This document shows positions 4,184 through 45,622 of a DNA stretch of 64,000 nt, piece after piece. The stretch's first letter is position 1. Each line of letters starts with the position of its first letter. The position numbers were made by a program, and so were the translations under genes. Origin of the DNA: Chrysochromulina tobinii. Lineage: Eukaryota > Haptophyta > Prymnesiales > Chrysochromulinaceae. The stretch is taken from positions 1 through 64,000 of the forward strand of contig JWZX01003385.1 in NCBI GenBank assembly GCA_001275005.1. The letters run 5' to 3'. Below the pieces are notes generated by a model. That model was not told the origin of the DNA, made no database searches, and saw only the letters and a program-made list of their open reading frames with translations.

Positions 4184-7100
4184 ATGGGCGTGCCTGCCTT
4201 CTACCGCTGGCTGGCCGACAAGTACCCGAAGATCGTCGTCGATTGCATCGAGGACGACCCGGCCCACGGGCCGGTCGACGCGAGCCAGCCGAATCCGAAC
4301 GGCCACGAGTTCGACTGCCTCTACCTCGACATGAACGGCATCATCCACCCGTGCGCGCGCCCCGAGGGCCGGCCGCCGCCCGCGACGCACGAGGAGATGT
4401 ACGCGGCGATCTTCAAGTACATTGATCGCATCTTCTCGGTCGTGCGGCCGCGCAAGCTCCTCTTCATGGCCATCGACGGGCCAGCGCCACGCGCCAAGAT
4501 GAACCAGCAGCGCACGCGGCGGTTCAAAGCGGCCAAGGAGCGCGCCGACAAGGCGGCCGAGACGCTTGCGCTGCGTGCGGAGCTTACGGCGCAGGGGCGC
4601 GTGCCGCCGCCGCCTTCGGACAAGACTCCCTTTGATTCGAACGTCATCACGCCCGGGACTCGGTTCATGGCCGACCTCGCCCACTGGCTCCGGTTCTACA
4701 TCCAGCAACGACTGCACTCCGATCCGGGCTTCGAGGGCATTCGGGTGATCCTGTCGGACGCGTCGGTGCCAGGCGAGGGCGAGCACAAGATCATGGAGCA
4801 CATCCGTCGGCAGCGGGCCCTTCCGGGGTACGAGGCCGCCACGCGCCACGCGTGCCCGGCTGCGGCTCGCATGCAAGTGCTCACCACGGCGCCGTCTCTC
4901 CCTGATTAGGTACGAGGCCGACACGCGCCACGTCATCCATGGGCTCGATGCCGATCTGATCATGCTCGCACTCGCGACTCATGAGCCGGTACGCCGAGTG
5001 CATGCTGAGGACCTGCCTTGCATGCAACTGCTCACCACAGCGCTGAGGACCTGCCTCGCATGCAACTGCTCACCACAGCGCGCGCTCTTCCCCACTCCCC
5101 ACTCCCCACAGCACTTTTCAATCCTGCGCGAGGTCGTGCTCGACCGGAAGGCGCAGGAGAAGCAGAAGGAGAAGATCGCCAACGGCCACGTGCCCGGCCC
5201 GACGCCCCTCCAATTCCTGCACGTGTGGACGCTGCGTGAGTACCTGCAGCGCGAGTACTTCGAGGGGGTCGACTGGAGCCTGGTGCCTGCTTGATGACCT
5301 CCTTGATGACCTCCTCGATGACCTCCTGATGACCTCCTGATGACCTCCTTGATGACCTCGTGATGACCTCGTGATGACCTCCTGATGACCTCCTGATGAC
5401 CTCCCTGGGGTGGACTGGAGCCTGGTGCCTGGGGGGCTTCGACCTCGAGCCCAAGCCCTTGCATGCATGCGCTCACCACGGCGCCTCCCTCTTCCCCACA
5501 GGTGCCCGGGGGCTTCGACCTCGAGCGCGTCATCGACGATTTCGTCTTCCTCTGCTTCTTTGTGGGGAACGACTTCCTTCCACATATCCCGGCGCTCGAA
5601 ATCCGCGACGGCGCGATCGATATGCTCATCTACTCTTACAAGGCGTTGCTGCCCTCCCTCGGCGGCTACATCTCGGACGCGGGCCGCGTCCACCTGCCGC
5701 GGGCGGAGGCCGTGCTGCGCGAGGTGGCGCAGTTCGAGGAGGAGGTCTTCGAGCGCTCACGACGGCGCGAGGAGGGGCGAGCTCGCGCGCAGGCGGCACG
5801 CACGATGCAGGAGGGCGGGCAGGTGGCCCCGGGTGCCTTCGGGTCGCTCTACCCGCCGCGTGATAACGGCCAGAAGCTCCTGTGGAATGCGATGAAGGCC
5901 TTCGCCGATGCGGCCGTGATGGACGCCGTACTGCCCATCCCGGCTTCGTCCATTTCGTCCGGCTTCCACAAGGCGTCCTTCCACTTATACCTGACGCTGC
6001 TCAACCTGCACGACGCCTCGCAGCCCGACGGCTCCTTTTTGGTCAAATGCAAGCGCGCGCCGCGCAAAAAGGGCGCTGACGAAGCCGGCTTCGTCGAGCA
6101 TGCGAACGGTCTGCTAGGCGCCGAAGGGGTCGGTGCGGAGGGGGGGGAGGCGTCGGTAGAGTGCACTGTGGACGACTTCAACATGAGGCTCGCGCTGCGC
6201 CTGGAGAAGCTTGAGGAGGCGGCAGCGTCGCAGCCCGATGTGGTGCGTCACGCTGATGAGCACTCATGAGCGCTGATGAGCACTGATGAGCACTGATGAG
6301 CACTGATGAGCACTGATGAGCACTGTCCATCAGGTGCGGTACGGCGAGAGCGGCTGGAAGGAACGTTACTATGCGCACAAGCTGCAGGTGCACAAGGGGG
6401 ATGAGGCGATGAAGCGCTATGTCGTCGGGTGCTATGTGCAAGGCCTCTGCTGGACCCTAATGTACTATTACCAAGGGGTGCAGGACTGGGGCTGGTTCTA
6501 TCCCTTCCACTACGCGCCGTGTGCCTCTGATATCATCGGGTATGCGCCCTCACTGCCTATGCCCTCGCTGCCCTGTGCCCTATGCCTTGTGCCCTAGGCC
6601 CTCGCTGCCCTGTGCCCTATGCCTTGTGCCCTAGGCCCTCGCTGCCCTAGGCCCTCGCCATGCCCTCGCTGCCCTATGCCCTATGCCCTCGCCATGCCCT
6701 CGCCAGTGAGAACACCAGCTGCCCTCCTGAGCATGCCAGTGCTCACCACGGCGCCCTCGCTTCCCCACAGGCTCCACGAGTTTGCCGGCGGCCAGTTCAC
6801 ACTCGGAGCGCCGTTCACACCCTTCCAGCAGCTCATGGCGGTCTTCCCACCGTCCTCCGGCCATGCACTGCCGGAGAGCTACCGCACCCTCATGGTGATT
6901 GCGCCTGATTGCGCCCCTCATCCTGCGCCCCTGATTGCGCCTGATTGCGTCTGATTGCGTCTGATTGCGCCGCATCCTGATTGCGCCCCTCATCCTGCAG
7001 GTGCACCCCGCCTCGCCCATCATCGACTTCTACCCCATCGACTTCCGGATGGACCTCAACGGCAAAAAGTTCTTCTGGCAGGCGATCGCGCTCCTCCCCT

Positions 7101-8027
7101 TCATCGACGCCGCACGGCTGCGCGCCTCGCTCGCGCCGCTCGACACGACGCTCGAGGCCGAGGAGGCGCGACGAAACTCATTCGGGGCCGAGCTCCTCTT
7201 TGCGAGGGCTTCGTCACCGCTGGGCGCGCTCATCGTCGCTGCGACCGCTCACCACGGCGCTGCGAGCGCGGGAGCGCCGTGTCGAGCGCCACTCGACATC
7301 AGCCCGTACGTGCCGGGCTTTGGTGGCGCGCTGTCGTGGGCCGGTACGGTCGCCGATGGACCAATGATGACCGCTGATGACCGCTGATGACCGCTGATGA
7401 CCGCTGATGACCGCTGATGACCGCGTGGGGTGGGCCGGGCTCCCCACTCCCCGCGCATGCAAGTGCTCACCACGGCGCCATCGCCCCCCTCCCCCCACAG
7501 GTGACCGCGTGGGGTCGGCGGGCTCCCCGCTCCCCGCGCCGATCGGCGGCGACGCGTACGGGCTAGCGCCCTTGAAGGAATCCACGGTCGCTGGTGCGGA
7601 GTACACGCCTCCGGCCTACGTGACGCACGTGCCTCGACTGCTGCCGACGATCCACCTGCCGCCGATCGTGCTGCAGCCGCATGATCGCTGCCAGCTCTCG
7701 CGTGACTCCGAGGCGGCGTGCCGCTCCCTCGCCGCCCGCCTCGCGACCTATGGTCCGGGCAGCGCGGTACCCGTCGCGGTGGGCGGGCGTGGCGGCGGAC
7801 CGCGCTACGGCGGAGGCGGCGGAGGCGGCGGCGGCGGAGGCGGCGGCGGCGGCGGCGGCGGAGGCGGCGGAGGCGGCGGAGGCGGAGGCAGAGGCGGACG
7901 TGGAGGCGGCGCTCACGCCGTTGGCCACGCGGTGGCTCTGCAGGGCGGCTATTCACAGCAGGGCCACGCGGGGCTGCCGCCGCAACGGCACCGCTCGGCG
8001 CCGATGCCGCTCGGTGCACGACGATAG
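4184..8027 (+). CDS. XRN: 5'-3' exoribonuclease of the XRN (XRN2/RAT1) family, 8 exons
   Basis: Exons 4184-4827, 4910-4988, 5112-5282, 5502-6242, 6334-6539, 6771-6894, 7001-7343 and 7501-8027 join in phase to 944 residues. The start [15 protein letters not shown] is the invariant XRN N-terminus. Conserved acidic metal-site motifs are visible: [12 protein letters not shown] (D49), [17 protein letters not shown] (D98), [26 protein letters not shown] and [13 protein letters not shown]. The later conserved motif ESGWKERYY and the block [10 protein letters not shown] are also present. The C-terminus is a long Gly/Arg-rich tail encoded by (GGC/GGA)n. No CCHC zinc knuckle is seen. XRNs degrade 5'-monophosphate RNA processively, in nuclear termination and rRNA processing or in cytoplasmic decay. 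Five of the seven introns carry the GCATGC/CTCACC cassette or copies of flanking exon. Confidence 0.95.
4869..4909 (+). repeat. Family-1 intron cassette, XRN intron 1
   Basis: The cassette begins GCATGCAAGTGCTCACCACG and ends at the acceptor (TTAG). In front of it is a 23 bp copy of the next exon's start (4828-4850 versus 4910-4932, one mismatch). The repeat offset of 82 bp equals the intron length. Confidence 0.9.
5020..5111 (+). repeat. Two family-1 intron cassettes, XRN intron 2
   Basis: Two tandem copies start at 5020 and 5058 with GCATGCAACTGCTCACCAC, each preceded by TGAGGACCTGCCT. The second runs through a CTTCCCCACTCCCC tract to the CACAG acceptor at 5111. Confidence 0.85.
5290..5405 (+). 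repeat. Intronic TGATGACCTC(C) minisatellite, XRN intron 3
   Basis: About ten imperfect 10-13 bp units of (C/T)TGATGACCTC. They are followed at about 5409-5450 by a degenerate copy of the flanking exon junction (TGGACTGGAGCCTGGTGCCT), which has gained one extra G. Confidence 0.85.
5461..5501 (+). repeat. Family-1 intron cassette, XRN intron 3
   Basis: Starts GCATGCATGCGCTCACCACG and ends CTTCCCCACAG at the acceptor. It is preceded by the partial copy of the surrounding exon sequence. Confidence 0.9.
6252..6326 (+). repeat. Intronic CTGATGAGCA minisatellite, XRN intron 4
   Basis: Seven near-perfect 11 bp units of CTGATGAGCA(C/T) make up almost all of the 91 bp intron 6243-6333. The intron starts gtgcgtcacg and the next exon starts gtgcggtacg. 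Confidence 0.9.
6555..6715 (+). repeat. Intronic GCCCT-rich minisatellite, XRN intron 5
   Basis: Imperfect repeats of TATGCCCTCGCTGCCCTGTG and CCTAGGCCCTCGCTGCC types fill the upstream part of intron 6540-6770. The downstream part is the family-1 cassette. Confidence 0.8.
6731..6770 (+). repeat. Family-1 intron cassette, XRN intron 5
   Basis: GCATGCCAGTGCTCACCACG followed by GCGCCCTCG and CTTCCCCACAG, ending exactly at the acceptor. Confidence 0.9.
7366..7424 (+). repeat. Intronic TGATGACCGC decamer array, XRN intron 7
   Basis: Six perfect 10 bp units of TGATGACCGC inside intron 7344-7500. The last unit runs straight into an approximately 38 bp copy of the start of exon 8. Confidence 0.9.
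7455..7500 (+). repeat. Family-1 intron cassette, XRN intron 7
   Basis: GCATGCAAGTGCTCACCACG followed by a C/T-rich tract and CACAG. The 38-39 bp immediately before it (7418-7456) nearly duplicate the first bases of exon 8 (7502-7539). Confidence 0.9.
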
Positions 8028-8226
8028 GGATGCTTACATGCATCCCCATTGGAGGTGAGTGGAGGCGAGGTGTCGGGTGGAGCGAGGGTGGGCAGAAAGT
8101 GGCCAATGCGGTGAGCAGAAACAGGCAAACGAAAGAGGGAGTTGCGGCTCTGCACTGTGCCGCTTCTGCCTCATATGATGTAATACTCGGTCGCGTCGGT
8201 TTCGCGTATCCACCGTTTGCGCGTTC

Positions 8227-10789
8227 ATGTGCGTTGGCTCCCGTTTTCCTTTCACAAGCGCCGTTTTTTCCTTTCACACCATCGTCCTGCTGCTCTTTAA
8301 GACGTGTTTCGCGATGCCGATTCAGCCGTGCCACTGCTTCTCCATGTGCACCGTAGATGAGGCACGCCAATTCCATCGCAACCTGCCCGGGCCCATAAAC
8401 CGCAGTAGCCCGTGGGCAGGCTACCTCAACGCCGTGTATGGCACCGAGGCTCGGCTGCCATGGCCATTCGATCTGCGTTCTCTCACCATGTTTTATCACA
8501 ACGACCGGCGCTGGAGTTCACGCCATCCAACGACAGAATGGCCGATGGCGACGTGCGCGCGGCGAGCACAGCCCGAGAGTAGGGGCCTGAGTTGGAATGG
8601 CCCGACGACGACAGTGTGTCCCTCCCACATATGCGCTCGCTGGACTGTGCCGCCGCCGCTGCCCGAGGCCGCTTACTCGGCGTCCGCTCTCCTCCCTCCG
8701 ATGATCCTACTGCCCGAAATCGGCAGGCAACCGCCAGACATCACCACGGCTGGCGCCTACTGGCCACTGCAGCCGGCGGCCCTTGGCGGGTACGCCGCCG
8801 CCGACGGGGCCGAGAGTAGCTCGCCGAACTCGTCCGTGCCGACGGCGAGCTTAACGCCCTCTCGAGTACAATGGGCCGCGACGCGATCTGGAGGCTGGGT
8901 CGAGGTGCTGCGGGAGCCCTCCGGCCTCGAAGGCCAGGCCGGGTACGGCTGCTGGTTCACGCCGGCGAGTGGCACAGGTGTGTGCTGGGTCCACGTGGAT
9001 TGATGGCTATTGATTGCTTTTGATTGGTTAACACCGGCGAGCGGCACCACAGGTGTGTGTGGGTCCAGATTGATTGCTACTTTTCGTTGATTGATGGCTA
9101 CTAATGGCTACTGATTACTCTCTCGGTTGCTTGTGATTGCTATCGACTGCTATTGATCGGTTCACCCCTGCGACCGGCGCAGGCATTTGGGTCAACGTGG
9201 GGCGCACCTGGGCAGTCGCGACCAAGCCGGAGCTATACCTGCCGTGGTCCGAGGGAGACCTCGTCGGCCGTTGGCTTTCCAAATTTGGGTTTCCACAGCG
9301 GCGTCTCGTCGAGGATCGAGATTTCGAGCTCAGCGTGAGCATCTGCCGCGCACACGCGGCCGCCGAGGCGCTCAAGACGGCGCGAGGCGGCGCGCTGAAG
9401 ACCGATCGATGCGAGGCGGAGTGGTTGTTGCGCCGCCGCCCTCCGAATGCGTCTGCGGCGGCGAGGAGGCCGACACCTTCCGTTTCGTCACCTTCCGTTT
9501 CGTCACCTTCCGTTTCGTCACCTTCCGTTTCGTCATCTTCTGTTTCGTCACCTTCTGTTTCGTCACCTTCCGTTTCGTCACCTTCCGTTTCGTCACCTTC
9601 TGTTTCTGCGCTGAGGCCGTTGCCTTCAGGGCCGCCGCTGGCCACGCTCCCTTCAGGCCCTTGTATGATGGCAGGTCATCAGTGGTCGTCAGTGGCAGGA
9701 CATCAGTGGTCATCAGTGCTCTCCTCGGGCCCTATGATAGGAGTGGTCGGCTCGTCGCAAAGCCCGCAGCATGCATGGAACCCGTTGCGCTACCGCCTCG
9801 TGCCGCATGCAATGTGCCGGCTGCACGATACGTGCCGCTGCACGCTCGCGGCTGCCGCGGCGGCATCGGACCCTAGTGCTCTTCCGCGACGCGCCCGGGA
9901 CGGCGCTCAGCACGACGCGGCGCCCGCCAGTCAGCCCACGGGGCATCCGCTCAACACGACGCGCTCGGAGGCTCTCTCGGGGGACGCTCATTGGCTCGGC
10001 TATCCCGAGATATTCCCATTTATGGCATACGAACTTGGCCTCGACAGCGTCCAGATTGGGCCGATCGCAGGCGGGGCGTACCGAGGCGACGCCTCTGTGA
10101 ACGGCCAAGGCGACGCCTCGGTGAGTGGCAGGGCTGCTAGTGCTAGTGCTGACAGTGCTGCTAGTGGCAGTGCTGCTAAAGCCGGTAGTGCTGGGAGTGC
10201 TGGTCCGGCTGCAGGAGCGGGCGGGCAATTAGGGCAATTAGAGCAATTAGGGCAGTTAGGTCAGTTAGGTCAGTTAGGTCCGGCTGCAGGAGCAGGCGGG
10301 CATGGCAGCCGCCGAGCTCGCCCTCTCTCGAGCGCAGCGCGTCCGCTCCCGCCCCCAGGCACCCCAGGCTGGCGGGCGGAGATTGTGATCACGACGGCTG
10401 CATGCATGGGGGCGCCCGTTAGGCGCATGCCCAAACTTGGCTGGCGGACTTGCTTGGATGGTTGGGTGGAGGTGCGAGCGGGCTACTTGGGCGACGATGC
10501 GAGCGGGTCCACGGTGGCTGGCCATCCCAACATGCATCACAATCGCGGGCGGCGAGAGAGCGGTGATGGCACGCGCCGTCAAGTGGGCGCCGTCGCGGGC
10601 GCTGGGCGTGCGTGTGACTGTGACCAAACCGCCCGCCTCCTCAACTGCGATGGCGCCCACTGGAGCTGCCGGCCCTATTGCAGGGCGCCACACCAGTCTG
10701 ACAGCGCTCGCCGCCAGATGCTGTGCTCCCGCGGGGATTGTGCCGGGTGCCAGTTCTGCGCGGCGCCTCGGGGCGTACTTCCGGTTTGA
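8227..10789 (+). CDS. Hypothetical protein, Ser/Ala/Gly repeats, two exons
   Basis: Exon 8227-8977 joined to 9183-10789 keeps phase (ACA G|GC) and gives 785 residues. The N-terminus has a hydrophobic segment (AVFSFHTIVLLLFKTCFAM). The best-conserved-looking parts straddle the splice: GWVEVLREPSGLEGQAGYGC and GIWVNVGRTWAVATKPELYLPW. Low-complexity tracts follow: PSVSS repeats, Ala/Ser/Gly stretches and GQLGQL repeats, with a Cys-rich end. I do not recognise the family. The intron holds three diverged copies of the exon junction (near 8958, 9029 and 9161). The last 500 bp are uncertain: another frame also looks protein-like from about 10437, so a missed intron or indel is possible. Confidence 0.45.
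9476..9605 (+). repeat. 15 bp tandem repeat inside a coding region
   Basis: About nine units of CTTCCGTTTCGTCAC, varying C to T at one position and C to A at another. In the proposed frame they encode PSVSS; the other five frames are also open, so the frame is not secured by the repeat itself. Confidence 0.85.
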
Positions 10790-11124
10790 TACCGACGGTC
10801 TGCGGACTGCGCAGTCGGCGCTCTGGATCGTTCTACGTTCACATCTGCAGCCGCTCACGGTTTGCGGAAACCGCAAGCTCACAGCCGTTTCACACAGGGC
10901 AGTAACCATGTGTTAGAAATCACACACATTCACATTCACACGTGTGTCGTGTTCTCTGTGGCCATCCGCTGGACATCTTCCTGTTTGTGCAGAAGCATCT
11001 TCTTGGGCGTTTCCAGCATGCTCCGATTACAATTGTGTCAGATAATTCACACCAATGGTTTAACCATTCACAATCAGAAAAATTTCTCGATGCGACGCCT
11101 GTGAAGTCCACCTCGTCGGGGACG
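10790..11124. other. Intergenic region with small palindromes
   Basis: 335 bp between the hypothetical gene and the methyltransferase. It contains a perfect 12 bp palindrome GACTGCGCAGTC near 10805, a short hairpin cggtttgcggaaaccg near 10858, and a CA-rich stretch around 10920-10945. I see no gene. Confidence 0.4.
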
Positions 11125-12329
11125 ATGAGCGATCTGCTGCGTCTCTCTGGCGACGGCTCCGGCACTCGTTGGGGCTTCAGGAGCGACGAAGAAGTGCGAG
11201 CCGGACCTGAAGATCATCGTGAGCCTGGGACTCCGAATCCCGTACCGGCGCGCTCACCTGAGAGGCCCATGCCGCCCGATCCTGAGTACGGCACCTCCGA
11301 CTACTGGGAGAGGCGGTATGCTGAGCGCGTGGACGAGCAGACCTTCGAGTGGTATGGCAGCTTCGTCGCCCTCGAGGACGCGATCGTCGCCGCGTTGCCC
11401 TCGACCAAGGCTCTCATCCTGCACGTCGGCAACGGCAACAGCGCGCTGCCCGAGCGGCTCTGGGCGTGCGGGTACACGTGGCAGCACGCGAGTGACATCT
11501 CCCAAAGTGTACACCCAGCATGCGAGTGCTCACCACGGCGCGACTCTCGCTTTCCCCACAGGTACAAGTGGCAGCACGCGAGTGACATCTCGCCCACGGT
11601 GATTTCTCGTATGGCCGAGCGGACGAGGGACTGCGAGGGACTGCACTGGGCAGTGGAGGACGCGACTTGCATGCCGCACGCCATGGAGACGTTCGACGCC
11701 ATCATCGATAAGGGCACGTACGATGCGCTCGCGACCGGATCGTACCGCGAGAGGGCGTTGGTCTCCGAGGCGAGCTTGCATGCAGATTGCGACTGATGAG
11801 CACTGATGGCCTCCCTCATCAGGCGTGGCGGGTGCTCCGAGGCGAGCTTGCATGCTGATTGCGAGTGATGAGCACTGATGGCCTCCCTCATCAGGCGTGG
11901 CGGGTGCTCCGAGGCGAGCTTGCATGCAGATTGCGACTCATGAGCACTGATGGCCTCCCTCATCAGGCGTGGCGGGTGCTCCGAGGCGAGCTTGCATGCT
12001 GATTGCGACTGATGAGCACTGATGGCCTCCCTCATCAGGCGTGGCGGGTGCTCCGGACGGGTGGCGTATACATCCTGATCTCATCACTCGAGTCGACGGA
12101 GCTAGCCCTCGGTCCGCCTGCGTGGAGGCAAGGCGAGTGGCACGTGTCCAAGAGCAGAGTCGAGACGGGCATGGGGCGCAGGTGCTTCGTCTTTCGCGCC
12201 ATCAAGCGTCAAGGTACCACCGACGCGAGCTTGCATGCTGATTGCGACTGATGAGCACTGATGGCCTGTTCCATCAAGCGTCAAGGCACCACCGACGCGC
12301 AGCGAGAACAGGAAGTCAGCGCCACATAG
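11125..12329 (+). CDS. Class I SAM-dependent methyltransferase, METTL13/EEF1A-KMT-like, four exons
   Basis: Exons 11125-11471, 11562-11769, 12039-12213 and 12286-12329 join in phase to 257 residues. The fold signature of METTL13/EFM4-type lysine methyltransferases is present: GTSDYWERRYAER, ALILHVGNGNSALPERLW (motif I), HASDISPTVISRM, DATCMPHAMETFDAIIDKGTYDAL and EAWRVLRTGGVYILIS. Motif I reads HVGNGNS where LGCGNS is usual. The likely role is lysine or N-terminal methylation of a translation factor, inferred from the family. Intron 2 is best read as GC-AG, because SEAWRVLRTGG needs the codons before the GC; a GT donor at 11761 is a phase-compatible alternative. Introns 1 and 3 lie between long direct repeats of exon sequence, and intron 2 is a 72 bp tandem array. 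Confidence 0.85.
11518..11561 (+). repeat. Family-1 intron cassette, methyltransferase intron 1
   Basis: GCATGCGAGTGCTCACCACG followed by CTTTCCCCACAG. A 30 bp copy of the next exon's start (11472-11501 versus 11562-11591, one mismatch) forms the 5' end of the intron. The repeat offset of 90 bp equals the intron length. Confidence 0.95.
11770..12038 (+). repeat. 72 bp tandem array of family-2 intron cassettes
   Basis: Four units begin at 11770, 11842, 11914 and 11986. Each has a 53 bp cassette starting GCGAGCTTGCATGC, containing CTGATGAGCACTGATGG and ending CTCATCAG. The first three are each followed by a 19 bp copy of the exon start GCGTGGCGGGTGCTCCGAG; the fourth leads into the true exon 3 at 12039. 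Units differ by one or two bases. Confidence 0.95.
12199..12299 (+). repeat. 29 bp direct repeat exactly bracketing intron 3 of the methyltransferase
   Basis: Copies at 12199-12227 and 12271-12299 differ at one base (CAAGGT versus CAAGGC). The donor GT is in copy 1 and the acceptor AG is at the same position in copy 2. The offset of 72 bp equals the intron length. The spacer between copies is a family-2 cassette. Confidence 0.95.
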
Positions 12330-12896
12330 AGCGATCCATTTTTGGAGTCGGGTTTGGGGCACGCGCTGTGTTGGCTGCGTGGCAGGCTGCTGCGGGCCGC
12401 TGCGGACGCCGCCGACGCCGAAACCGACGACGAAACCGACGAAGCTGACGAAACCGACGAAGCTGACGAAACTATGCGGGCTGCTGCAGACGCCGCCGAC
12501 GAGCCCTCGGAAGAGCAGTCGGAGCAGTTAGAACGCCTCCAAGCAGAGAGCCCTCACGCGGAGCGCCGTCACGAGCGCGTGGAGCGCCGTCACGAGCACG
12601 CGGAGCGATGGTTCAAGGAGGCGCGCACGGCGCGGCTTGCGGCCGAAGAGGTGCTGCGCACGGCGAACGAAGTGCTCGTCGCCAAGCTGAGCGAAGCCGC
12701 CGCCGGCGCCGCTGGCTGCCGCATGTCGGTAGTTGACAGTGGAATCCTCGGCTCTGCAAGTCTCCCCGTCACGTGGAAACTCTCACACTCAACAAAAGGA
12801 AAAACCTGCGGATTGAAGTGCCCAAAACGGCGGCCGGAGAAGTTTGTGGCGGCGATTTCTCCTCGCCGTCGTCTCCTCTGCGCTCGCTCGAGCAAT
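12330..12896 (+). other. Intergenic stretch with a possible small acidic/coiled-coil ORF
   Basis: An open frame continues from about 12342 into the FKBP gene in the same frame. It encodes an Asp/Glu/Thr repeat (DETDEADETDEADE) followed by a Glu/Arg-rich helical stretch (HERVERRHEHAERWFKEAR). It could be an N-terminal extension of the FKBP or an upstream exon. The FKBP targeting signal at 12897 argues that this region is not part of that protein. No family is recognised. Confidence 0.3.
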
Positions 12897-13943: not shown

Positions 13944-16900
13944 ATGGCGGCCTCCCCCATTTTGGTCAAGGAAGCTTTTGGGGTCAAGGTCCCGCGCCCT
14001 CGCGTGCTGCAATACTCCCCACCGTTACCCTTTGAGCGTGACAAGGCCGTGCCATTCGATACGAGCTTCTCGCCGGTTGGCATCATGGCCGACCTTGCCT
14101 CCATCCCTCCCGCGTACGGCCACAAGAACCTCCTGAAGGCGTGGGAGCACGGGGAGCATGCACGCCAGCAGCACTCGCCGCGACCTGGCTTGCCAGCCGT
14201 GCCTTCGACGCATGCGCCGCTCAAGCCCATCCGCCGCCTCGACTTTGGCGCCGACAGGCGGAGCATCGGCCTGCTGCAGGTGCGAGTGCCGTCGTCGTCA
14301 GAGGGCAGTGGTTACCCGGCGAAGCGTCCTTTCAGCCCGCCTATGCACCTCAAGCATCTCTTCGTGATGCCGCACTATTCACCGGAGCTGCGCGCCGGCG
14401 ACGCCCCGCCCTCGCCTCGCCTCTACCTGCCACCGCCAACGCCTCCCCAGTATGGCGTGCCGGTATCGAAACGCAAGCACTCGTCGCAACGGATGGCGAT
14501 TCCACACGAAGGCGGCAGCGTCGGGACCACGGGGGTGGCCTCGGCCCCACTCCTCACGGCCCACTACACGGGCAACTACACGCTCTCGTCGTCCCCTTCG
14601 CTGCCCATGCTACTGCCCTCAGGCCCGCGAAACGCCCCCAGTGGAAACGCCGCCTCCCCTCCTCCCCCCCAAGTTTCGTCACCGTATGGAGGACCCGAGC
14701 TCCCGAGGGCCGCGTGGTCCACCGGCGCCGTGGCGAGCACCGGTCGCAAGTTGACGCCCTCGTCGTCGCTGCCAGCGCTTCCACAGATCCATCCCAGAGC
14801 GCATGCCGATCCGACCCAAATTAGGCAAGACGCGTCTTCTGCTCTGGGCCGACCCAAATTAGGCAAGACGCGTGGAGAGGCTACGATGATGGCCACCGAG
14901 GCCACCGCCATGACGGAGGCGGATCTCGCCGCGATCTCGCCGCGATCTCGAGGCGATCTCGCCGCGATCCGGCTGCAGGCGGTGCGGCGGGGGCAAGTGG
15001 CGCGACGCCGCGCTGTGGTGAGCACTCGAGCGACTCAGCAGCACCTCGCCGCTGCGGCAGAGAAGTATGATCCAAATATGGGACGGCTGCCTAATATGGG
15101 ACGTCCAGCGCTGTGGGAGGCTCGAGATTCCCACAGCGTCGATGAGACCTCTGCGCGCCACCTCGCGGCCATCAAGCTGCAGGCCGCACGTCGCGGGCAC
15201 GCGCAGCGATGCAAGCTGCATGCGGCGCGCCCAGCCCTGCATGACGCGCCCGTCGCGGCGCATGCAAGTGCCCGGCACGGCGCACCGACGGCCTCCGCGA
15301 GTGTGAACGTGAGTGTGAACCCCATCGGCTGGGTGCGCGAGATGGTGGCGCCATTCGCTTGGGTGGTCTCGGATGCGCGCATTGGCCGACTGGAGCACAT
15401 GGCGGCGGGGGGGGGGCTGACCGTTGAAGAGCGTGCTGAACTCCTGGAGGCCGCGCGCACGATGCAGGCCATCCAGCGCAATGAGCGGAGCCAGGCCAGG
15501 GAGCACCGCCATCAGCCGTTGGGGGTGCCAACGGCCGCCCACGACGGCGCCCTGCTCCCGGATCGGCGTGCCAAGGGAGGCGCCCACCACGGCGCCAGCA
15601 AGGGCGCGCAGCACGGCGCGATGAAGGGAAGGAGGGAGGTGCGACGCGCCGTGGTGGGCGAACCGCCGCTGGGCGCTGCGACGGGCGCGACGACGGCGGA
15701 GGCGGCGGCGGTGCCGAAGCGGGCCGCGGACAAAGGCGCGAAGGACATCGCGGCTGCTGCTGCCCAAGACGGCGCCCAAGAGGCCAGGGTGTCCAAGGGC
15801 GCGCCCAAGACGGCGCCCAAGGCGGCGTCGGGAGCGGCGCCGAGCGCGGCGAAGGCGGCGTCCAGGGGCGCGCCCAAGACGGCGCCTCGAGGTGCGTCGG
15901 CAGCGACGGCGACGGCGGCGGCCATGGGCGCCGTCTTGGGCGCGGACGTCTCGAATGGGTTTGCAAGCAGCTTGGGACGCCACTTTTATGCCGTCAATGT
16001 GGATGCGGTCGTGGCGCATGCGGTCCACGAGGTTCTCGACTCCGTCGTGAGCTTGGGCATCGACGAGCACGCGAGCGCCGTCGCGGGCGCAGCCTTGGCG
16101 CCGAGCGTGGCGAAGCCGGCGTCCAAGGCCGCGTCCAAGACGGCGCCCAAGGCGGCGCCCAGCGCGGTGCCGAGCGCGGCGAAGCCGGCATCCCATGCCG
16201 CTCCCAAGACGGCGCCTAGAGCGGCGCCCAGCGCGGCGCCGAGCGCGGTGCCGAGCGCGGCGCCGAGTGCGGCGCCGAGTGCGGCGCCGAGTGCGGCCAA
16301 GTCGGAGGCGGAGGTGGCGGCGGAGGCGTCGGCGAAGGCGGAGCAAGAAGCGGCCGAGAAGGCCACGATCGCCATCCAAGCGCGCGTGCGCTCGAGCTTC
16401 GTCGCCAACGGCTATCGCAACGAGCTCAAAGCGCGCCGCGCGGCTGCCACGATCATGCAGGCCTCCTACCGTGGGCACACCGGCCGATCCGCAGCGGCCA
16501 AGCAGCTGCGTGTGGAGGCGCATGCGGCGGCGCTGGTACAGGCCCTCGTGCGCGGTCGCTCGGAGAGAAAGGTGCAGAAGCTCGCGGTAGCCGCCTCCGA
16601 GCCCTCCTCCGCCGAGCCCGCAGCAGCAAAGCCCGCAAAGCCCGTCATCTCCGAGTCATCTCCGAGTTTAGTCATCTCCGAGCCCACCTCCGCCGAGCCC
16701 GCAGCTGCAAAGCCCGCAAAGCCCGTCATCTCCGAGTCATCTCCGAGTTTAGTCATCTCCGAGCCCACCTCCGCCGAGCCCGCAGCTGCAAAGCCCGCAA
16801 AGCCCGTCATCTCCGAGTCATCTCCGAGTTTAGTCATCTCCGAGCCCACCGCCGTCGACCTCGTCACCCCCAAGCCCGACAGCACTGATACCACCGCCTT

Positions 16901-37290: not shown

Positions 37291-37709
37291 GTACGATCAC
37301 CATCGTGAGCGAGTTCGTCTCCGGCGGCTACAACTGCTGTGAACTGAAGTATCCCGAGCGTTCGAGGGCGAGGCTTTCCAGCGCCCATGCCGATAGTCGG
37401 TCAAAAGGTGTGCTTGTCGCGGCTGTGTGTTCGTACCGACCGTGAAGAGGCTCTAGTCGTCAGCAAAATATATCGTGAGGTTGGTGAGAATATTCAATAT
37501 ATCGGCGCATTTAATCAAACAGTCGTCGCGAGATACAGCCTAGGTGCGGTGGGACTCGAGTCTCGACAGTCGACTGTGTAGACAAGCATGAAGCAAGAAC
37601 CGGGTGGGCGGTGGCGGACCGACCGTCCGGAACTCCAGCTGCACCGCAGCAGCGCCAAACGGACCCGACCCTGTGCACCGACCCCATCAGAGGGTAACGG
37701 TCGGCTCCA
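37291..37709. other. Convergent intergenic region
   Basis: 419 bp between the 3' ends of two convergent genes. No gene or repeat recognised; presumably two 3' UTRs. Confidence 0.4.
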
Positions 37710-39230: not shown

Positions 39231-39389
39231 AGCAGAAGGGTTGCCGTGCGTCTCCCTGCAACACGGTGCTCGCTTTTCCTGAAAACCTTGGAGAACCTAA
39301 CTTCATGTTTCACCACGTTCGTTGGCCGCGTCATCTTTTACAGCGGTCTTTCCTGAAGGGGAATTCGAGACCGGTTTCTTCTTATCAAC

Positions 39390-41159
39390 ATGTGGGCCCT
39401 CTTGATAGGACTAGGACTGCTCGCTTTGATCACGGTGCTCGCAGTTTTCGGCGTCGTACATCGGCGCTCATCAGCTATCCGCCGCCGTGAAGATCTGAGG
39501 CCCCTCCACCCGAACGGGTCCTTCTCGCTCCGCCGCGCCTTTGGCGTCCTCCTGCAGAGCTCCGGCCGCAGGAGCACTCGCCGGACCCATCCGCCGTGGT
39601 ATGCTGCGCCGTCGCGTGGCCCGGGCCGCATCGTGCGCACCTCGAGTACCCTCTCGTTGAAGGACATCGATAATGTAGCGGCAGACGACAGCTCCGACGA
39701 TGGTATCAACTCCGATGTCGAGGACGCACGCGACATCGAGGACTCGTTCGGCGTGCCCCCATCCGCGAACGACGAACCGTGCGCGCCTTCGCGCGGCGAC
39801 GCGCTGCTGTGCGCGGTGCCTCCGGAACTCTGGGTTGACGTGCTCTGCGCCGCGGGCCCGCACGCGGTCCGCGCCCTGCGCGTCACGTGCCGGCAGATGC
39901 ACAGCCATCTCGACGGCGCATGCTTTTGGCAGTCGCTGTGCAAGCGCGTCTTCGCGCCGTGGGCGGTGGCGCTGCAGCCCACCTCGCTCGGCTGGGAGCT
40001 GGCGGCGCGCCCGGGCGGCTCCTTTTTCAGCGCTCCCCAGCACAACCTGGGCCGCGCATGGCGGCTTCGGTACCTCACGTGCTGCCGTGATCACCACACG
40101 CTGCGTCAGGCGGCCAGTCATGTGGGCTACCGGCCGCCTCCACCGCCCGCACCGGTGGCGCGCCGGCGCCCGCCCGCGCCGCCGCCGCCGCCGCCGCCGG
40201 ACGCATTCGCGGATGGAGCGGCAGCCAACGGCTCGAGCGGAGATGAAACAACTGATGAGACCGAAGAGGGGCCTCGTCCAACTGCCGCCGGCTCGGGCGC
40301 GGCCGCCTCGTGTGTCGCGATCGACCTCGAGTCGAGTGGCGGGCTGCCGAGCGATGAGACGGAGGACGAGGCGGTGGGCCGCGGCGGCGGCGGTGACGAG
40401 GCGTCCGAGGTGGCGGCCCTGGCGGCGGCAGCCTCGAGATCTGAGCTCGACCTCGAGATCTCGATCTCGCCCACCGAGCTCGCCGAGCTCGGTGCGTCCA
40501 CGGCGTCTCTTCACACCATGACGTCTCTTCACACCATCGGCGACGAGCCATCGACCATCTCGAGCTACCTGCCGCACCTGTTGCTCATGGCGTGCCACGC
40601 AGCGGAGTTGCCCTCATTACGGCAGTCGTGGGGAGGGCGAGGGCCCTCAGCGGCACAGGTGGCTCGTGCCCTGATGCGAGAGCAGCAGCCGCGTATCGAG
40701 ACGCTCGTGGCGCTCGTGGCACGCTCGTGCCGCACGCAGCGCCGCCTCGTCCCAGTCTGGCGACGGGCGCGCGTCGATGAGCTACCGGAGATTCCGCTGC
40801 CCGACGGCAGCGGCGGCGGCGGCAGCGGCGGCAGCGGCGGCGGCGAGGACGAGGACGAGGATGAGGACGGTGGCAGCGGCCGCATCGGCAGCGGCCGCAT
40901 CGGCAGCGGCGCTGGCGGCAGGTGCGCCACGCGCAGCGGCCGCGTGCGACAACTCCTTAGCTTGCTCGCGCACGCGGGGGCGGGGCCGCCCGAGTGCTGG
41001 GTGGCGCACCTCGCCAAGGGCGGCGGCCAGGGCGCGGGCGCCGATGGGCTGCTTCCGTCCACGGCAGTCGCGCGCACGACTTGCTGGATGCTCGTCGTGT
41101 CGACGAGCCGCCATGCCGTGTGGCTCGACTTCCTCATGCTGAGGCAGGAGGGCTGGTAG
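39390..41159 (+). CDS. Membrane-anchored F-box-like protein
   Basis: 589 residues, single exon, ATG at 39390. Residues 3-24 form a clear transmembrane or signal-anchor helix (ALLIGLGLLALITVLAVFGVV), followed by basic residues, so the rest should be cytosolic. An F-box-like motif occurs at about 145-195: LLCAVPPELWVDVLCAAGPH ... ALRVTCRQMHSHLDGACFWQSLCKRVF. After it come Pro-, acidic- and Gly-rich tracts (GGGGSGGSGGGEDEDEDEDG). A C-terminal helical region ends SRHAVWLDFLMLRQEGW. F-box proteins present substrates to SCF ubiquitin ligases; here the ligase would be tethered to a membrane. The F-box call rests on spacing of hydrophobics and the Leu-Pro-x-Glu-Leu start. Confidence 0.7.
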   Translation: MWALLIGLGLLALITVLAVFGVVHRRSSAIRRREDLRPLHPNGSFSLRRAFGVLLQSSGRRSTRRTHPPWYAAPSRGPGRIVRTSSTLSLKDIDNVAADDSSDDGINSDVEDARDIEDSFGVPPSANDEPCAPSRGDALLCAVPPELWVDVLCAAGPHAVRALRVTCRQMHSHLDGACFWQSLCKRVFAPWAVALQPTSLGWELAARPGGSFFSAPQHNLGRAWRLRYLTCCRDHHTLRQAASHVGYRPPPPPAPVARRRPPAPPPPPPPDAFADGAAANGSSGDETTDETEEGPRPTAAGSGAAASCVAIDLESSGGLPSDETEDEAVGRGGGGDEASEVAALAAAASRSELDLEISISPTELAELGASTASLHTMTSLHTIGDEPSTISSYLPHLLLMACHAAELPSLRQSWGGRGPSAAQVARALMREQQPRIETLVALVARSCRTQRRLVPVWRRARVDELPEIPLPDGSGGGGSGGSGGGEDEDEDEDGGSGRIGSGRIGSGAGGRCATRSGRVRQLLSLLAHAGAGPPECWVAHLAKGGGQGAGADGLLPSTAVARTTCWMLVVSTSRHAVWLDFLMLRQEGW

Positions 41160-41353
41160 GTAGGCTTCTCAGATTTCTTGAAAGTGCGCATGGTACTTAG
41201 TTAAGTGAAAAGTATAGCGGGTCCTCACCAGATCCGCCCAATGCTCCGCTGATAAGCGCCTGCGACGCGCTCAACGCGGCGCCCAAGTTGGCGCGGCAGC
41301 GGGAAGGTCCATTGCGAGTCGCTTACCACGTGGTGGAGACGGCGCCGAGCGCG

Positions 41354-41844
41354 ATGTCAAAGACTGCTGAGGACCACAAGGCGGATGGCAACAAAGCCTT
41401 CCGCGGGGGTGAGTACGCCGAGGCTGTGCGCAGCTTCACCGAGTCGCTGCGGCTCAACCCGCATGATGCCCTCGTTCTCGGCAACCGCGCTGCAGCTTTC
41501 GACAAGCTGGGCGAGCATGAGCGCGCGATCACGGACTCGATGGCGTCGCTCCGGATCGACCCAACATATCTCAAAGGCTATTTTAGGTTGGCGACGGCGT
41601 ACATCGCCGTCAACCGGCCGCGCGAGGCGCTCGAAGCGGTGAAGCAGGGTCTCATGATCCAGCGCACCAATAGCCAGCTGAGGCAGCTTGAAGAGCAGGC
41701 GACAGCGATGATCGCAGCGCAGGATGGGGCAGAGGAAGACGGCGAGGTGGACGAGGAGGATGACGAGGACGAGGACGAAGACGAGGACGACGAGGACGAC
41801 GAGGACGACGAGGACGACGACGACGACGACGATGAGGGGTATCT

Positions 41845-41886
<42 letters not shown>

Positions 41887-43644
41887 GCAGCACTCGCAGC
41901 CGATGGACACGAGCAGCAGTAGCCGTACGCGAGCACGGGTGCCCGCCGAGAGCCCCGAGCCGGCCGCGCCGTCCGACCCGGCCGAGGCGGCAGAGGCCGC
42001 CAAGGCGCGCGGCAACGACCTGTACAAGCGCGGCGAGTACAGCAACGCTGTCGACTACTACTCGAAGGCGGTGCGGCTGCAACCCACGAACGCTACGTAC
42101 CGGATCAACCGGGCGGCGGCGGCACTGATGCTCGAGCGCGCGGAGGACGCGCTCTCGGACTGCCAGGCGGCGCTCGAGTCCGAGCCGACGAACATCAAGG
42201 CGCACGTTCGAGGGGCTAAGGCCCGCATCATGCTTGGTCAGCTGTCCGAGGCGCGCCGGCACCTCGAGCGGGCAGCGACGCTGCCCACCGCCGACGCGAC
42301 AGTCGCGACGGAGCTTGCGGGGCTGGGCGAGCTCGAGGCGTCGCTCAAGTCCGGAAAGGAGGTGCTAGAGCAGGCGGGTGGCGCGGCTGCGCGGGAGGCT
42401 TTGAGGCTCTTCACCTCGCTCTCGCAGCGCTGCCCTTGCTCCGAAACGGTCGCGTGCCTGCAGATGGAGGCGCTCATGCGGGCACGTCCCGACCAGGGGC
42501 CGCAGCAGGTGGTGGCCGAGTCGGCGCGCTGGCTGCGCAAGTCGGCGGACAACCCCGGACCTGCTCTGCGTGCGCGGCAAGAGCCTGTACAAAACAGGCC
42601 AGCTCGAATCGGCTCTCAAGCACTTTGCAGAGGCGCTGCGGCAGGATCCGGACCACTCGGCGTCTCGTCAGATGCGAGCTCAGCTTCGTCAGATCGAGGA
42701 GGCGAAAAAGGCGGGGAATGAGGCCTTCTCTGCCGGCCGGTACGCCGAGGCGATCCAAAAGTACACCGAGGCACTCGAGATCGACCCCGAGAACGCTGAC
42801 CTGAACGTGACGTTTTGGACGAATCGAGCGACGGCGCGCTTCAAGAACGGCGAGTACACGGCGGCGGTGGCGGATTGCGACGCGGCGCTCGCGGCGGCGC
42901 CGCGCCACATCAAGGCGCTGCTGCGGCGCGCGGCGTGCAAGCTCGAGCTCGAGGACTACAAGGGCGCCATCAGTGATTACGAGGAGGCGCAAGCCATCGA
43001 GCCAGAGGACCAGACCATCCGCCAGGGGCTGCGCAACGCGAAGCTCGAGCTCAAAAAGTCAAGTCGCAAGGACCTGTACAAGGTGCTCGGGATCACGAAG
43101 AACGCGACGGACCACGAGATCAAGAAGGCATATAAGAAGAAGGCGCTCGAGTGCCATCCGGACCGTTTGGGCAGGTCTGATGGCCCCTCATTGCCTGCTG
43201 TTCCGCATGCTGATTGCCCTCCCTCAATGCATGCTGACCTCGAGCATGCATCCGGACCGTCTGGGCAGTGCCCTGATTGCCCTCCCTCATTGCATGCTGA
43301 CCTCGAGCATGCATCCGGACCGTCTGGGCAGTGCCCTGATTGCCCTCCCTCATTGCATGCTGACCTCGAGCATGCATCCGGACCGTCTGGGCAGTGCCAC
43401 ACCCGAAGAGAAGGCCGTCGCCGAGAAGCGGTTCAAGGAGGTAGGCGAGGCGTTCGAAGTCCTCTCCGACCCAGCGAAGAAGCAGCGCTGGGATAGCGGG
43501 GAGACTCTCGACGAGCTCAACGGGAACGGCGGCGGGCGCGGCGGCGGCGGCTTTGGCGGCATCGACCCGTCGGATCTCTTCCGCGCCTATGCGCAGCAGG
43601 GCGGCGGTGGCTTCGGCCGGGGGGGCGGCTCCCGAGGCTTCTGA
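41354..43644 (+). CDS. DNAJC7: DNAJC7-like TPR/J-domain co-chaperone with an apparent 1-nt frameshift
   Basis: TPR units begin at residue 1 (AEDHKADGNKAFRGGEYAEA). A second TPR block starts at AKARGNDLYKRGEYSNAV. A third (AKKAGNEAFSAGRYAEAI) leads into a J domain (KDLYKVLGITKNATDHEIKK ... CHPDRLG) and a Gly/Phe tail, the order of DNAJC7, which links Hsp70 and Hsp90. An acidic (GAC/GAG)n run and a (CAG)n poly-Gln run separate the first TPR blocks. The frame changes at the CCCCGG at 42553-42558: removing one base joins ADNP to DLLCVRGKSLYKTG, the DNAJC7 pattern, and makes the total length a multiple of three (689 residues). Exons 41354-43174 and 43395-43644 are split by an intron inside HPDRLG|SATPEEK. 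The frameshift may be an assembly error, a null allele or programmed. Confidence 0.88.
41740..41890 (+). repeat. (GAC/GAG)n and (CAG)n coding microsatellites
   Basis: About 30 codons of Asp/Glu (41745-41835) are followed by 13 near-consecutive CAG codons (41847-41885). They lie between the first and second TPR blocks of the DNAJC7-like gene. Confidence 0.9.
43155..43394 (+). repeat. 63 bp tandem repeat in an intron carrying copies of the exon end
   Basis: The end of the exon (CATCCGGACCGTTTGGGCAG, 43155-43174) is repeated at 43249, 43312 and 43375 with one change (TTT to TCT). Copies 2-4 are 63 bp apart, separated by TGCCCTGATTGCCCTCCCTC and TGCATGCTGACCTCGAG. The last copy provides the acceptor at 43394; the offset of 220 bp equals the intron length. 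Confidence 0.93.
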
Positions 43645-43880
43645 CCACCAGGCGCAACACGGACGAGACTGGCCGTTTGTCTCGTAGCGCGCGGACGGGC
43701 GCGCGTGTCTGTTGGGACAGTTGGGGCATGCTGCAGGGATTTGTACACGACCGACGCTGAAGCGACTCGCTCGGCAAGGCGCTCGTAATCCCGCGTGGCG
43801 CGATGACGTGCATAATTTGGCGTGTCGACGGCTCGCCGCGTGCTCACCGCCTCATTCGTTAGGATAACTATTCGACGCGA

Positions 43881-45622
43881 ATGTCGACTTCGTGTGAACG
43901 TCAAATTGAAACGCCCGTGTCGAGCGACGAAACTTCTCGCGACGCGACATGGGCTGGGAGTTCCCACCACTGGCCGCGACGGAGTCGCATGAAAAACGCG
44001 CAAGAGCTCATCAGCACGTGGTCAGGTCTTCCCGAGTGCTCGCTCGTCGTTTTCCGACACTTGCAGAAGACGGGCGGTTCGTCCATCGTGCGTGCCTTCC
44101 ATGAACTGGAGCGCGACATGCTATGGACCATCTACGGCTACTGGAGCCCATGTTGGCAAGGCCGCTCGCAGCTCGTGGCCCGTGGGCGAATGCGCTGGCT
44201 GCGCATCGTGCGAATGCTCGGCGAGCGCGCCAACTCGTCAGCCGCAGGCACACGCATGCCGCAGAGCTGGCTGCGCGAGTTAGAGTCCATGCCATGGCCG
44301 ACGCGAATGCTCTTCCATTTGCACCATCCAGACTCGATGGTCTGCGGTGGTCTCGAGTCTGTGCAGGCGGAGCTTGCCAAGCTGCGCCCGGTGTTACCTG
44401 CGCTGGGCTGCCGCGTAACCGTGGCCATGGTCGTGCGCGAGCCATGGTCCTTTTTTGTGAGTTGGTACTATTACATTGGCGCCGCACGCTGCGGCTGGTG
44501 CACCTTTGAGCGCTTCGTCGCGCTCAACCCGAACGCACAGTCGCACTTGACGCTGGGCGGCGCGCCGCGCATTTACAGCGACAAGCTGCGTGCGCAGCAT
44601 GCGCGGCACGACCCTGTGCTGCTCGCGCGCGTGCACACGATCGTCGCAGGCATCGACGTGATCGGCGTGACTGAAAGGCTTGACGAGTTCATGCTCGAGC
44701 TGTGCGACGCTGCCGGGCTGCGCGTGTGCCCGAGGCTGAGCGTGCGCAACGTGCGCAGCCCAGGGGCGGCCTTGGGCGCGCTGCGGGAGGTCGCGTTGCG
44801 CGCCAACGCCTCGGTGCTCGACGTACGCCCTGACGAGAGCTCAGGCTCGTTACACCGACGCGCGGTTGCGGTCGCTGGCTGGCTTGACGAGGCTCTGTAC
44901 AGTCTCGCCTCGACTCGTGCGCGCCGTCGTGGGCAACCGGACCGCGCGAGGCTCGAGGCGTGGCGGATGCAGCCGATGTTCGAGAGTAGCGGCTGCTTCG
45001 GTTTCGCGCCCGTCACGGCGCCCGCACACAGCGCGCGCAAGATGAAGCCGTCCATCGCATCTTCAGCCCGTTCCATATTAGGATCAGCCCGTTCCGAGGC
45101 CATGACGAGTGCGTTCCCCGTGGCGCCCAGAGACGGTGCGGGTGGGCGCAAGGAGAGCCAGGGCGTCTTCGCCGTGCCGTTTGAGCACACGTCGTCCCGA
45201 CAGCACGCCTTCGCCCTCGAGTTGATGCAGAACCTGAGCGTCGTTCCGATGGCAGAGCGCGAGCAGGTGAAGCGCGAGCTGCTACGATTCCAGGCCGAGC
45301 ACGCATGCAAGTGCTCACCACGGCGCCCCCCTTCCCCCCACAGGTGAAGCGCTCGCTGCGCGAACAGCTGCGATGCGCTGACGTGCGTGCGGCGCTGGCG
45401 GGTGTGGGGGCGCGGGCGACGCGCGACCTGCCCGCCGTCCTGCGTCCATGGTTGCTGCCAGAGCGTGCGCAGCCACTGCAGCAGGGGCACGGCGGCGAGC
45501 TGGCCGGGTCTGGAGATTGGCGCGAGATCGTGCAGCACCAGGGCGAGCTCGTCGCCATGTGCTGCACGAAGGTACACTATGCGCATGCGCCACGTTTGGA
45601 TAAGGCGAGCTGCTCGACGTGA
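43881..45622 (+). CDS. Sulfotransferase-like protein, two exons
   Basis: Exons 43881-45266 and 45344-45622 join in phase to 554 residues. The PAPS-binding elements of the sulfotransferase fold are present: 5'-phosphosulfate loop FRHLQKTGGSSIVRAF (58-73) and 3'-phosphate motif VAMVVREPWSFFVSWYYY (181-198). The conserved histidine-containing stretch LFHLHHPDS lies between them. This matches carbohydrate O-sulfotransferases of the heparan sulfate 2-O type. There is no obvious N-terminal membrane anchor, which is unusual for Golgi enzymes of this group. The intron has the exon-copy plus family-1 cassette structure: it starts GTGAAGCGC, as does exon 2. The substrate, probably a polysaccharide or glycan, is inferred. 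Confidence 0.8.
45303..45343 (+). repeat. Family-1 intron cassette, sulfotransferase intron
   Basis: GCATGCAAGTGCTCACCACG followed by GCGCC and CTTCCCCCCACAG, ending at the acceptor. The 36 bp before it (45267-45302) begin with a diverged copy of the next exon (GTGAAGCGC shared). Confidence 0.92.

Follow-up and report, generated by a model that had tools for sequence, protein, structure and literature searches.

A very short, probable introner with long and variable target duplications

How new introns arise in genomes has long been unsettled, and for most known introner families an origin by cut-and-paste DNA transposons has been argued. The first-pass annotation of the window, as we call the whole stretch of 64,000 nucleotides analysed here, had noticed a short sequence recurring in the introns of unrelated genes and had taken it for a mobile 3'-splice-site cassette that borrows its GT from a duplicated exon. 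Did this sequence make the introns in which it lies and, if so, by what route? We consider it probable, at roughly 0.87, that the element is an introner, very short and mobile, which enters exons and leaves about 12-46 bp of its target duplicated, the family perhaps being that of a haptophyte. The cassette interpretation is supported by long direct repeats, restored reading frames and filled and empty alleles, and none of the outcomes named in the first-pass annotation as refuting it was observed. To it are added a duplication that is long and variable in size, a ragged left end, a second family, and differences in presence and absence among relatives.

Nine matches to the 20-mer core were found in the window at no more than 3 mismatches, against 0.03 expected; none of 100 shuffles reached nine. 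They start at 4869, 5020, 5058, 5461, 6731, 7455, 11518, 15260 and 45303, all on the + strand. All but the match at 15260 had been named in the first-pass annotation, and these eight copies, spread over three genes, are real and lie in the sense orientation described for them. Copies adjoining an acceptor end in CACAG in six of seven cases, with TTAG at 4869, while the 5020 copy, which leads a tandem pair, lacks an acceptor of its own. The partial match at 15260..15279 (+ strand) lies inside a long open frame and is apparently coding; having neither a tract AG nor a duplication, it was left out of the count of intron-forming copies.

In the XRN gene, intron i (82 nt, 4828..4909, + strand) consists of target copy 1 (4828-4850), an 18 nt filler and the core at 4869, with the TTAG acceptor at 4909 and target copy 2 from 4910. 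Intron ii (4989..5111, +) contains the tandem cores 5020 and 5058 and ends at acceptor 5111. Intron iii (5283..5501, +) holds a GATGACCTCCT tandem array (5292 to about 5405) and then a copy of both exon edges; its core lies at 5461 and its acceptor at 5501. The frame is restored on excision of each, and the gene with its introns excised encodes an in-frame XRN_N domain (profile 1-240 of 241). Cassettes also form the 3' ends of two further XRN introns: that at 6731..6770 (+; acceptor 6770), where an exon duplication was sought in the flanks and none detected, and that at 7455..7500 (+; acceptor 7500), where a duplication of about 36 nt, with one indel, abuts the core. The methyltransferase intron at 11472..11561 (90 nt, +; acceptor 11561) comprises target copy 1 (11472-11501), a 16 nt filler and the core at 11518, and is followed by target copy 2 (11562-11591). 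A methyltransferase was recovered once introns were excised, and both gene names given previously are confirmed. In the gene at 43881, the 77 nt intron 45267..45343 (+) has target copy 1, a 20 nt filler, the core at 45303 and the acceptor at 45343, with target copy 2 from 45344. The frame is open across the exon junction after excision, but no Pfam family at E 0.001 bears out the name sulfotransferase that this gene had received.

A search of the assembly with the core, covering part of what had been proposed in the first-pass annotation, gave 2,410 matches, compared with 5 for the reversed pattern. Acceptors follow at many places: CCCACAG occurs within 3-13 nt of the core at 518 places and CCACAGGT after it at 429, with controls of 0 for both. 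The element can be written as GCATGCAAGTGCTCACCACGGCGCC, a variable pyrimidine tract and CCCCACAG, and is about 41 nt long (30-53 across 39 copies); a pyrimidine-tract AG is present in 39 of 42 unclustered copies. CTCAC is the putative branch point, and the distance from its A to the G of the AG was measured at 22-33 nt in 31 copies, which corrects the 28-35 nt stated previously. Some copies have inverted or tandem local rearrangements beside them. In genome_contigs, which may omit records near this genome, the core 22-mer has no exact match outside this genome. One exact core match occurs in viral_contigs, subject to the same possible omission, close to the end of an IMG/VR contig of 4,554 bp that we suspect to be a chimera. 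As to the host, the named protein hit that ranked highest in one search is from Prymnesium sp. (71% identity over 20% of the query), the other named hits being from a fungus, a brown alga and a plant; in a second search they came from green plants, Klebsormidium and a chlorarachniophyte, and assignment to the haptophytes is a guess. No Rfam family was detected in the window at gathering thresholds, and RNA folding gave z-scores of -1.18, -0.27 and -1.06 for one element and two introns, indicating no notable structure.

Among environmental ORFs, compared at the protein level, the same introns occur in some near-identical genes and are missing from others. The methyltransferase site 11472..11561 is filled in P0122, P0123, P0124 and P0126 and empty in P0125, P0127 and P0128, the empty alleles having, again at the protein level, a single copy of the target sequence; some environmental ORFs, possibly P0125 and P0122 among them, could be partly spliced transcripts. 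XRN intron i is missing from relatives P0004, P0006 and P0007, and intron iii from environmental ORF P0010, which has a cassette, read through, at the site of intron ii. The second family occurs in the methyltransferase gene: an intron at 11770..12038 (+), built of 72-nt tandem units ending CCTCCCTCATCAG, is missing from P0122, and a 72 nt intron resembling this family at the 3' end of the gene (12214..12285, +) is missing from P0136, P0137, P0138 and P0140. P0136 does carry a cassette between 12-codon repeats, and P0137, P0138 and P0140 are without it. The second family has no match in viral_contigs, a collection which may omit records near this genome.

Could these simply be old introns that never moved, sharing a branch-point and acceptor consensus through constraint or gene conversion? 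The core does contain plausible splice signals, and its positions 11-15 hardly vary (45-46 of 46 copies). However, conservation also spans GCATGC and GCGC in these 46 copies, which goes past the needs of splicing, although the sample had been chosen at no more than 3 mismatches. Moreover, sites vary among close relatives, and in XRN relatives at 52-57% identity all three introns compared are missing, so that persistence from a distant ancestor was not seen. We find immobility scarcely credible, and some of the introns appear recent enough to be missing from close relatives.

Duplications were counted in a non-random sample of 62 copies: 47 came from the first 30 exact-match loci in contig order, 9 lie in the window and 6 at other loci. 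One set of 20 genomic regions consisted of contig starts throughout. To be counted, a copy needed at least 130 nt of upstream and 160 nt of downstream sequence, and duplicates with the same 90 nt around the core were set aside; a further 20 of the 62, which sit in clusters, were excluded from the summary counts, leaving 42. Of the 39 unclustered copies having a tract AG, 35 are bordered by a direct repeat of downstream exon sequence and four show none, compared with repeats in 55 of 1,360 cases where flanks were mispaired between contigs. When any AG was accepted, in an earlier count, the figures were 35/42 and, in the mispaired control, 10/208; in six rows of that count and of the filler-templating test described below, the chosen AG had five or fewer pyrimidines before it, and the recount required a tract AG. 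The duplications are 12-46 bp long (median 24). Long repeats also accompany the second family, in 4 of 14 simple copies (control 0/77). An unbiased scan for GT- or GC-started direct repeats following each dinucleotide placed AG at the top (134/5,145; CT 112/5,799; CG 155/9,019) and, swamped as it is by tandem repeats, gives weak support to an AG-linked duplication.

The position of the repeat suggests how the splice sites arise. It begins at the first base past the AG (offset 0) in 22 of the 35, and at these copies the start of the upstream repeat copy, which is the donor, reads GT in 19, GC in two and GA in one, with G at exon base -1 in 20. The 22 introns measure 63-93 nt (median 78.5), the distance from GT to core being 25-46 nt. 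In the other 13 the repeat lies elsewhere: at window copies 5461 and 7455 and at loci L005, L011 and L027 because of early mismatches or indels, while the others are weak or of low complexity (e.g. L017 at 1500, L023 at 2180, and L051). The element thus brings the pyrimidine tract and AG along with a branch-point-like sequence, the GT lying in the duplicated target. The spliceosome should then remove target copy 1 together with the element and leave the message unchanged, and we infer that these introns are indeed spliced in cells.

A codon test on the joined exons of 31 copies, of which six belong to clusters, agrees with this arrangement. The best score fell in the sense direction of the element in 24 copies and in antisense in seven, so the family is not mostly antisense. 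Joined exons were free of stops in sense in 22, and the frame continues across the junction in 15, where about 2.6 would be expected with the six frames random; in 8 of these 15 the intron length is not a multiple of three. The sense bias is what might be expected if freed intron RNA were reverse-spliced into another transcript, then reverse-transcribed and recombined into the gene, a process proposed for fungal introners without target duplications in passages of PMC9860276. Such a process predicts no exon duplication, whereas one is found in 35 of 39 acceptor-bearing copies and the target occurs once in the empty alleles; we therefore hold it to be very improbable.

The two ends of the element differ. 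The left end is ragged: the gap between target and core ranges from zero to 28 nt, with a single case of 46 nt. A 5'-extended form has 260 matches in the genome, and loci L010 and L053 have a common left extension with different repeats. Of 23 places returned by a scan for left-truncated copies, most are chance or coding repeats (several in L017), and one, at L049 (4073), is clearly truncated and has a 43 bp repeat. When fillers were sought elsewhere in the genome, one of four was common to another element copy; a second match turned out to be unrelated. The right end is mostly fixed at the AG, but repeats are present and the AG absent at L053 and in an L017 tandem, so the right end is not invariably AG. 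The statement that the cassette makes an intron wherever it lands was accordingly too strong: three of 42 unclustered copies, L053 and one L017 tandem are without a tract AG. Terminal inverted repeats were not found when the first 15 nt were compared, in one register, with the reverse complement of the last 15 in 39 copies: 2-5 positions match in 37, most often 2-4, and 6 and 7 in the other two.

These ends bear on the manner of movement. A transposase acting in trans on a MITE-type introner, by cut and paste, would move the element and make the duplication, and the mostly sharp right end suits it. DDE transposases, however, produce duplications of near-fixed length, and here inverted ends are absent and the left end is ragged. 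Introners whose target duplication supplies the 5' splice site are known, as with the 4 bp of Symbiodinium, but passages of PMC9860276 give introner target duplications as 3-9 bp, against 12-46 bp here. On balance, cut and paste appears unlikely.

Somewhat less unlikely, though still doubtful, is capture during repair, in which DNA opened by staggered breaks, or by paired nicks 20-45 nt apart, is filled in and receives a patch copied out of an existing intron. On this view it would be splice-competence, and not recognition by an enzyme, that lets the sequence spread. Direct repeats of 4-12 bp are the proposed signature of new Daphnia introns in passages of PMC4202315, and the variable fillers, the long repeats of the second family and the local rearrangements beside some copies point the same way. 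Against this, one core exists in thousands of copies whose end at the AG is mostly exact, which points to a dedicated process, and fillers show little local templating: among 15 tested, the shuffle fraction was below 0.05 in two for direct and in none for inverted templating, with no consistent signal.

We tentatively favour, at a little under even odds, a mechanism resembling retro-insertion. The template would be an RNA ending 3' in the AG, reverse-transcribed at a nicked target, and a second, staggered cut of the target would yield the duplication. This would account for the mostly fixed right end, the ragged left end and the long, variable duplication. The genome has 26 matches to the reverse-transcriptase domain RVT_1, 22 over the Pfam cut-off, unclassified and unlinked to the element, and no autonomous partner element was identified. 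The duplications are longer than those of LINEs. A more speculative version, possible but not one we would bet on, makes spliced-out introns themselves the mobile template, the excised RNA, its 3' end cut at the AG by the spliceosome, being copied by reverse transcription where another gene carries a staggered nick. If so, new copies would inherit branch point, tract and AG, the 5' splice site would be rebuilt from the long duplication of the new host exon, and introns would beget introns by retro-insertion without dedicated transposon ends.

The family thus combines a very small introner with a very high copy number, and filled and empty alleles apparently coexist among close relatives in environmental samples. 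Since its mostly fixed AG end, ragged opposite end and long, variable duplications do not fit the cut-and-paste model, the system could make the mechanism testable. LINE and SINE retrotransposition, primed at the target, leaves one fixed and one ragged end and variable target duplications, a pattern that most copies here share. However, the L053 and L017 copies are without the usual 3' end, the element is far shorter, no A-tail was seen on it, the duplications are longer and no partner element was identified. Among introners as described in passages of PMC9860276, those of Symbiodinium microadriaticum have a 4 bp duplication and terminal inverted repeats, unlike the 12-46 bp and lack of inverted ends here. 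Those of a Chrysochromulina sp. TARA MAG, possibly from the same broad algal group, resemble the present family in having no inverted repeats, but have a 4 bp duplication, carry the 5' splice site and co-opt the 3' one, the mirror of the arrangement here. The introner elements of Amoebophrya are also repeated introns with direct repeats at their borders, although these are 3-5 nt long and accompanied by inverted repeats of 8-20 nt and non-canonical splice sites, as given in sections of PMC7789003. The new introns of Daphnia pulex are recent and polymorphic too, and some have flanking direct repeats put down to staggered breaks; their mean of 77.7 bp is near the median of 78.5 nt here, but their repeats are of 4-12 bp and are explained by double-strand-break repair, according to parts of PMC4202315. 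Compared with known introners, the present family is distinctive in its duplication, long and variable at 12-46 bp and without terminal inverted repeats.

The 20-mer of the first-pass annotation is found at nine places in the window when up to three mismatches are allowed, all on the plus strand and against an expectation of 0.03. All eight copies listed by the first-pass annotation are among them, and the ninth, at 15260, lies inside a long open frame without a tract AG. Across the assembly holding the window (53.15 Mb, 2,253 contigs) there are 1,163 forward and 1,247 reverse matches, far above the 1 + 4 given by the pattern read backwards. CCCACAG follows the core by 3-13 nt at 518 places, and the core plus CCACAGGT occurs at 429, the control value being 0 in each case. 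A few core copies (locus L017 at 1213 and 1261, minus strand; locus L034 at 8577; window 15260) have no acceptor and apparently encode in-frame peptides on inspection by eye; those in L017 are in-frame 48 bp repeats, and related 18 bp coding-like repeats are also present there. An exact cassette, accompanied by a long repeat and a tandem array of small size, was also seen at the end of a viral contig, IMGVR_UViG_3300027760_000958 (~4380-4554), an end that is possibly a chimeric assembly.

Sufficient flanking sequence was available for 62 distinct copies, 42 of them unclustered. The unit reads, in order, exon, target copy 1 (usually starting GT), often a filler, the core GCATGCAAGTGCTCACCACGGCGC(C), a variable pyrimidine-rich stretch, an acceptor end that is mostly CCCCACAG, and target copy 2, which is the exon continuing downstream. 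An initial count accepting any AG gave a direct repeat in 35/42 unclustered copies (mispaired flanks, 10/208), with 25 at offset 0, where the repeat follows the AG without a gap. For a recount, the acceptor was defined as the tract AG and repeats were counted at a score of at least 10. A tract AG is present in 39/42 copies, whose elements span 30-53 nt (median 41), and a direct repeat accompanies 35 of these 39, compared with 55/1,360 for flanks paired across contigs. Repeats are 12-46 bp long (median 24; mean identity 95%; n=35) and abut the core directly in 7/35. Twenty-two of the 35 are at offset 0; of the other 13, some are displaced because a mismatch or indel falls early in the repeat, and several are of low complexity or weak. 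The offset-0 introns measure 63-93 nt, G is the exon base before the donor in 20/22, and the donors are GT (19), GC (2) and GA (1), which agrees with the earlier proposal that the GT is borrowed from duplicated exon. The exact GT start may reflect selection for splicing instead of target choice, and minimum intron size may have trimmed the repeat lengths observed.

Removal of the introns restores coding frames. Excising three introns (4828..4909, 4989..5111 and 5283..5501) from the front of the XRN gene leaves a single open frame with an XRN_N domain covering profile positions 1-240 of 241 (325.6 bits). The methyltransferase is open after excision (cassette intron 11472..11561; Methyltransf_11, 31.6 bits), and in the gene at 43881 the frame runs across the exon junction (intron 45267..45343) to a later stop. 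Codon statistics derived from eleven long ORFs of the window were applied to the joined exons of 31 copies: the sense direction of the element scored best in 24 and was stop-free in 22, and the other 7 copies scored best in antisense. The frame carries over the junction in 15/31, where ~2.6 would be expected were the six frames random, and 8 of these 15 introns are not a multiple of three in length.

Environmental ORFs recovered by protein search read through unspliced cassettes and therefore report the DNA state, unless they derive from transcripts spliced in part. In the methyltransferase, four ORFs (P0122, P0123, P0124, P0126) carry at the cassette site a 30-codon insert that includes the cassette and a second target copy, and three (P0125, P0127, P0128) lack exactly this insert and have just one target copy. 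Linked substitutions are common to P0127 and P0128, and both ORFs still read into the downstream second-family intron, making transcript splicing an unlikely cause of their empty site; splicing may account for the empty site of P0125 and for the absence at the next site in P0122. Elsewhere, a stretch of 12 codons stands on either side of a cassette in P0136, and P0137, P0138 (occurring on contigs up to 14,227 bases) and P0140 have that stretch once. Among XRN ORFs, P0010 (97% identical across 41% of the query) has a cassette at 4989..5111 and lacks the intron at 5283..5501, and P0005 has one where the window gene has none. More distant relatives with introns at the same sites would have marked these as old; P0004, P0006 and P0007 (52-57% identity) have no intron at any of the three. 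Towards its C-terminal end P0010 passes from TMQ to VHKGDE, resembling a peptide further downstream in the window gene, a switch that may be a rearrangement or another intron; P0003 apparently starts, at its N-terminal end, in second-family sequence directly ahead of TMQEGG, a place with no intron in the window. Direct repeats, restored frames and filled and empty ORFs among relatives together support the mobile cassette first proposed: judged from sequence, it is a real introner family, recently mobile.

The two ends of the element differ. The right end is mostly AG; the left is ragged, the gap between target copy 1 and the core running from 0 to 28 nt and once reaching 46, and one copy, at L049, is truncated inside the core beside a 43 bp repeat. 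With up to three mismatches allowed, 260 places match a form that is extended on its 5' side. One of the four fillers tested is common to another copy: that of L010 recurs, with 3 mismatches, upstream of the core at L053, two window fillers are unique in the genome, and the second match to the L038 filler was rejected as unrelated. L053 (G000 C206:11690-11890) is an insertion with its own repeat of ~24 bp and neither pyrimidine tract nor AG; insertion of the element need not yield an intron. On the minus strand of L001 (~1102-1160) and L005 (~826-880), copies are linked by a short inverted target copy (CGGCGGTGTG / ACACCGCCG), as if from template switching. Cut-and-paste insertion fits less well, given the long duplications of variable length, the lack of inverted ends and the pairing of one mostly sharp end with a ragged one. 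For these reasons a copying process fits better, in which a staggered nick would be opened in the target exon and copying into it would start from the AG end of the element. The mostly sharp and ragged ends and the variable duplication recall target-primed reverse transcription. Matches to a reverse-transcriptase domain number 26 in the genome, 22 of them exceeding the cut-off. A repair-capture process as the source of the insertions is a serious rival to such nick-primed copying.

A second, larger intron family shares the genome, with 3,302 matches to CTGATTGCCTCCCTCATCAG at up to two mismatches (control 0) and 782 exact matches to TGCCTCCCTCATCAGGT. Its introns end CCTCCCTCATCAG (window 11770-12038 and 12214-12285; L043 5021-5255) and in places form tandem arrays in which each unit joins the intron to a small part of an exon; the array at window 43170-43410 is similar, not identical. 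Long repeats flank 4 of its 14 simple copies (43 copies in all; control 0/77). Several other XRN introns (5292-5405, 6240-6335, 6540-6715, 6900-6990, 7365-7425) are composed of short tandem repeats, with GATGACCTCCT, TGATGAGCAC and CTGATTGCG among them.

Within the open-access literature searched, PMC3443670, PMC12768974 and PMC11782384 included, no report of introner duplications as long as 12-46 bp was found, and it is by these long, variable duplications that the family stands out there. Direct repeats are described as 3-5 nt (PMC7789003) and 4-12 bp (PMC4202315) long, and, for characterised introners, duplications of 3-9 bp in families of up to >2,000 copies (PMC9860276). One Chrysochromulina introner in the last of these differs on two counts: its duplication is 4 bp, against 12-46 bp here, and it brings its own 5' splice site, whereas in the present family the GT usually starts target copy 1.
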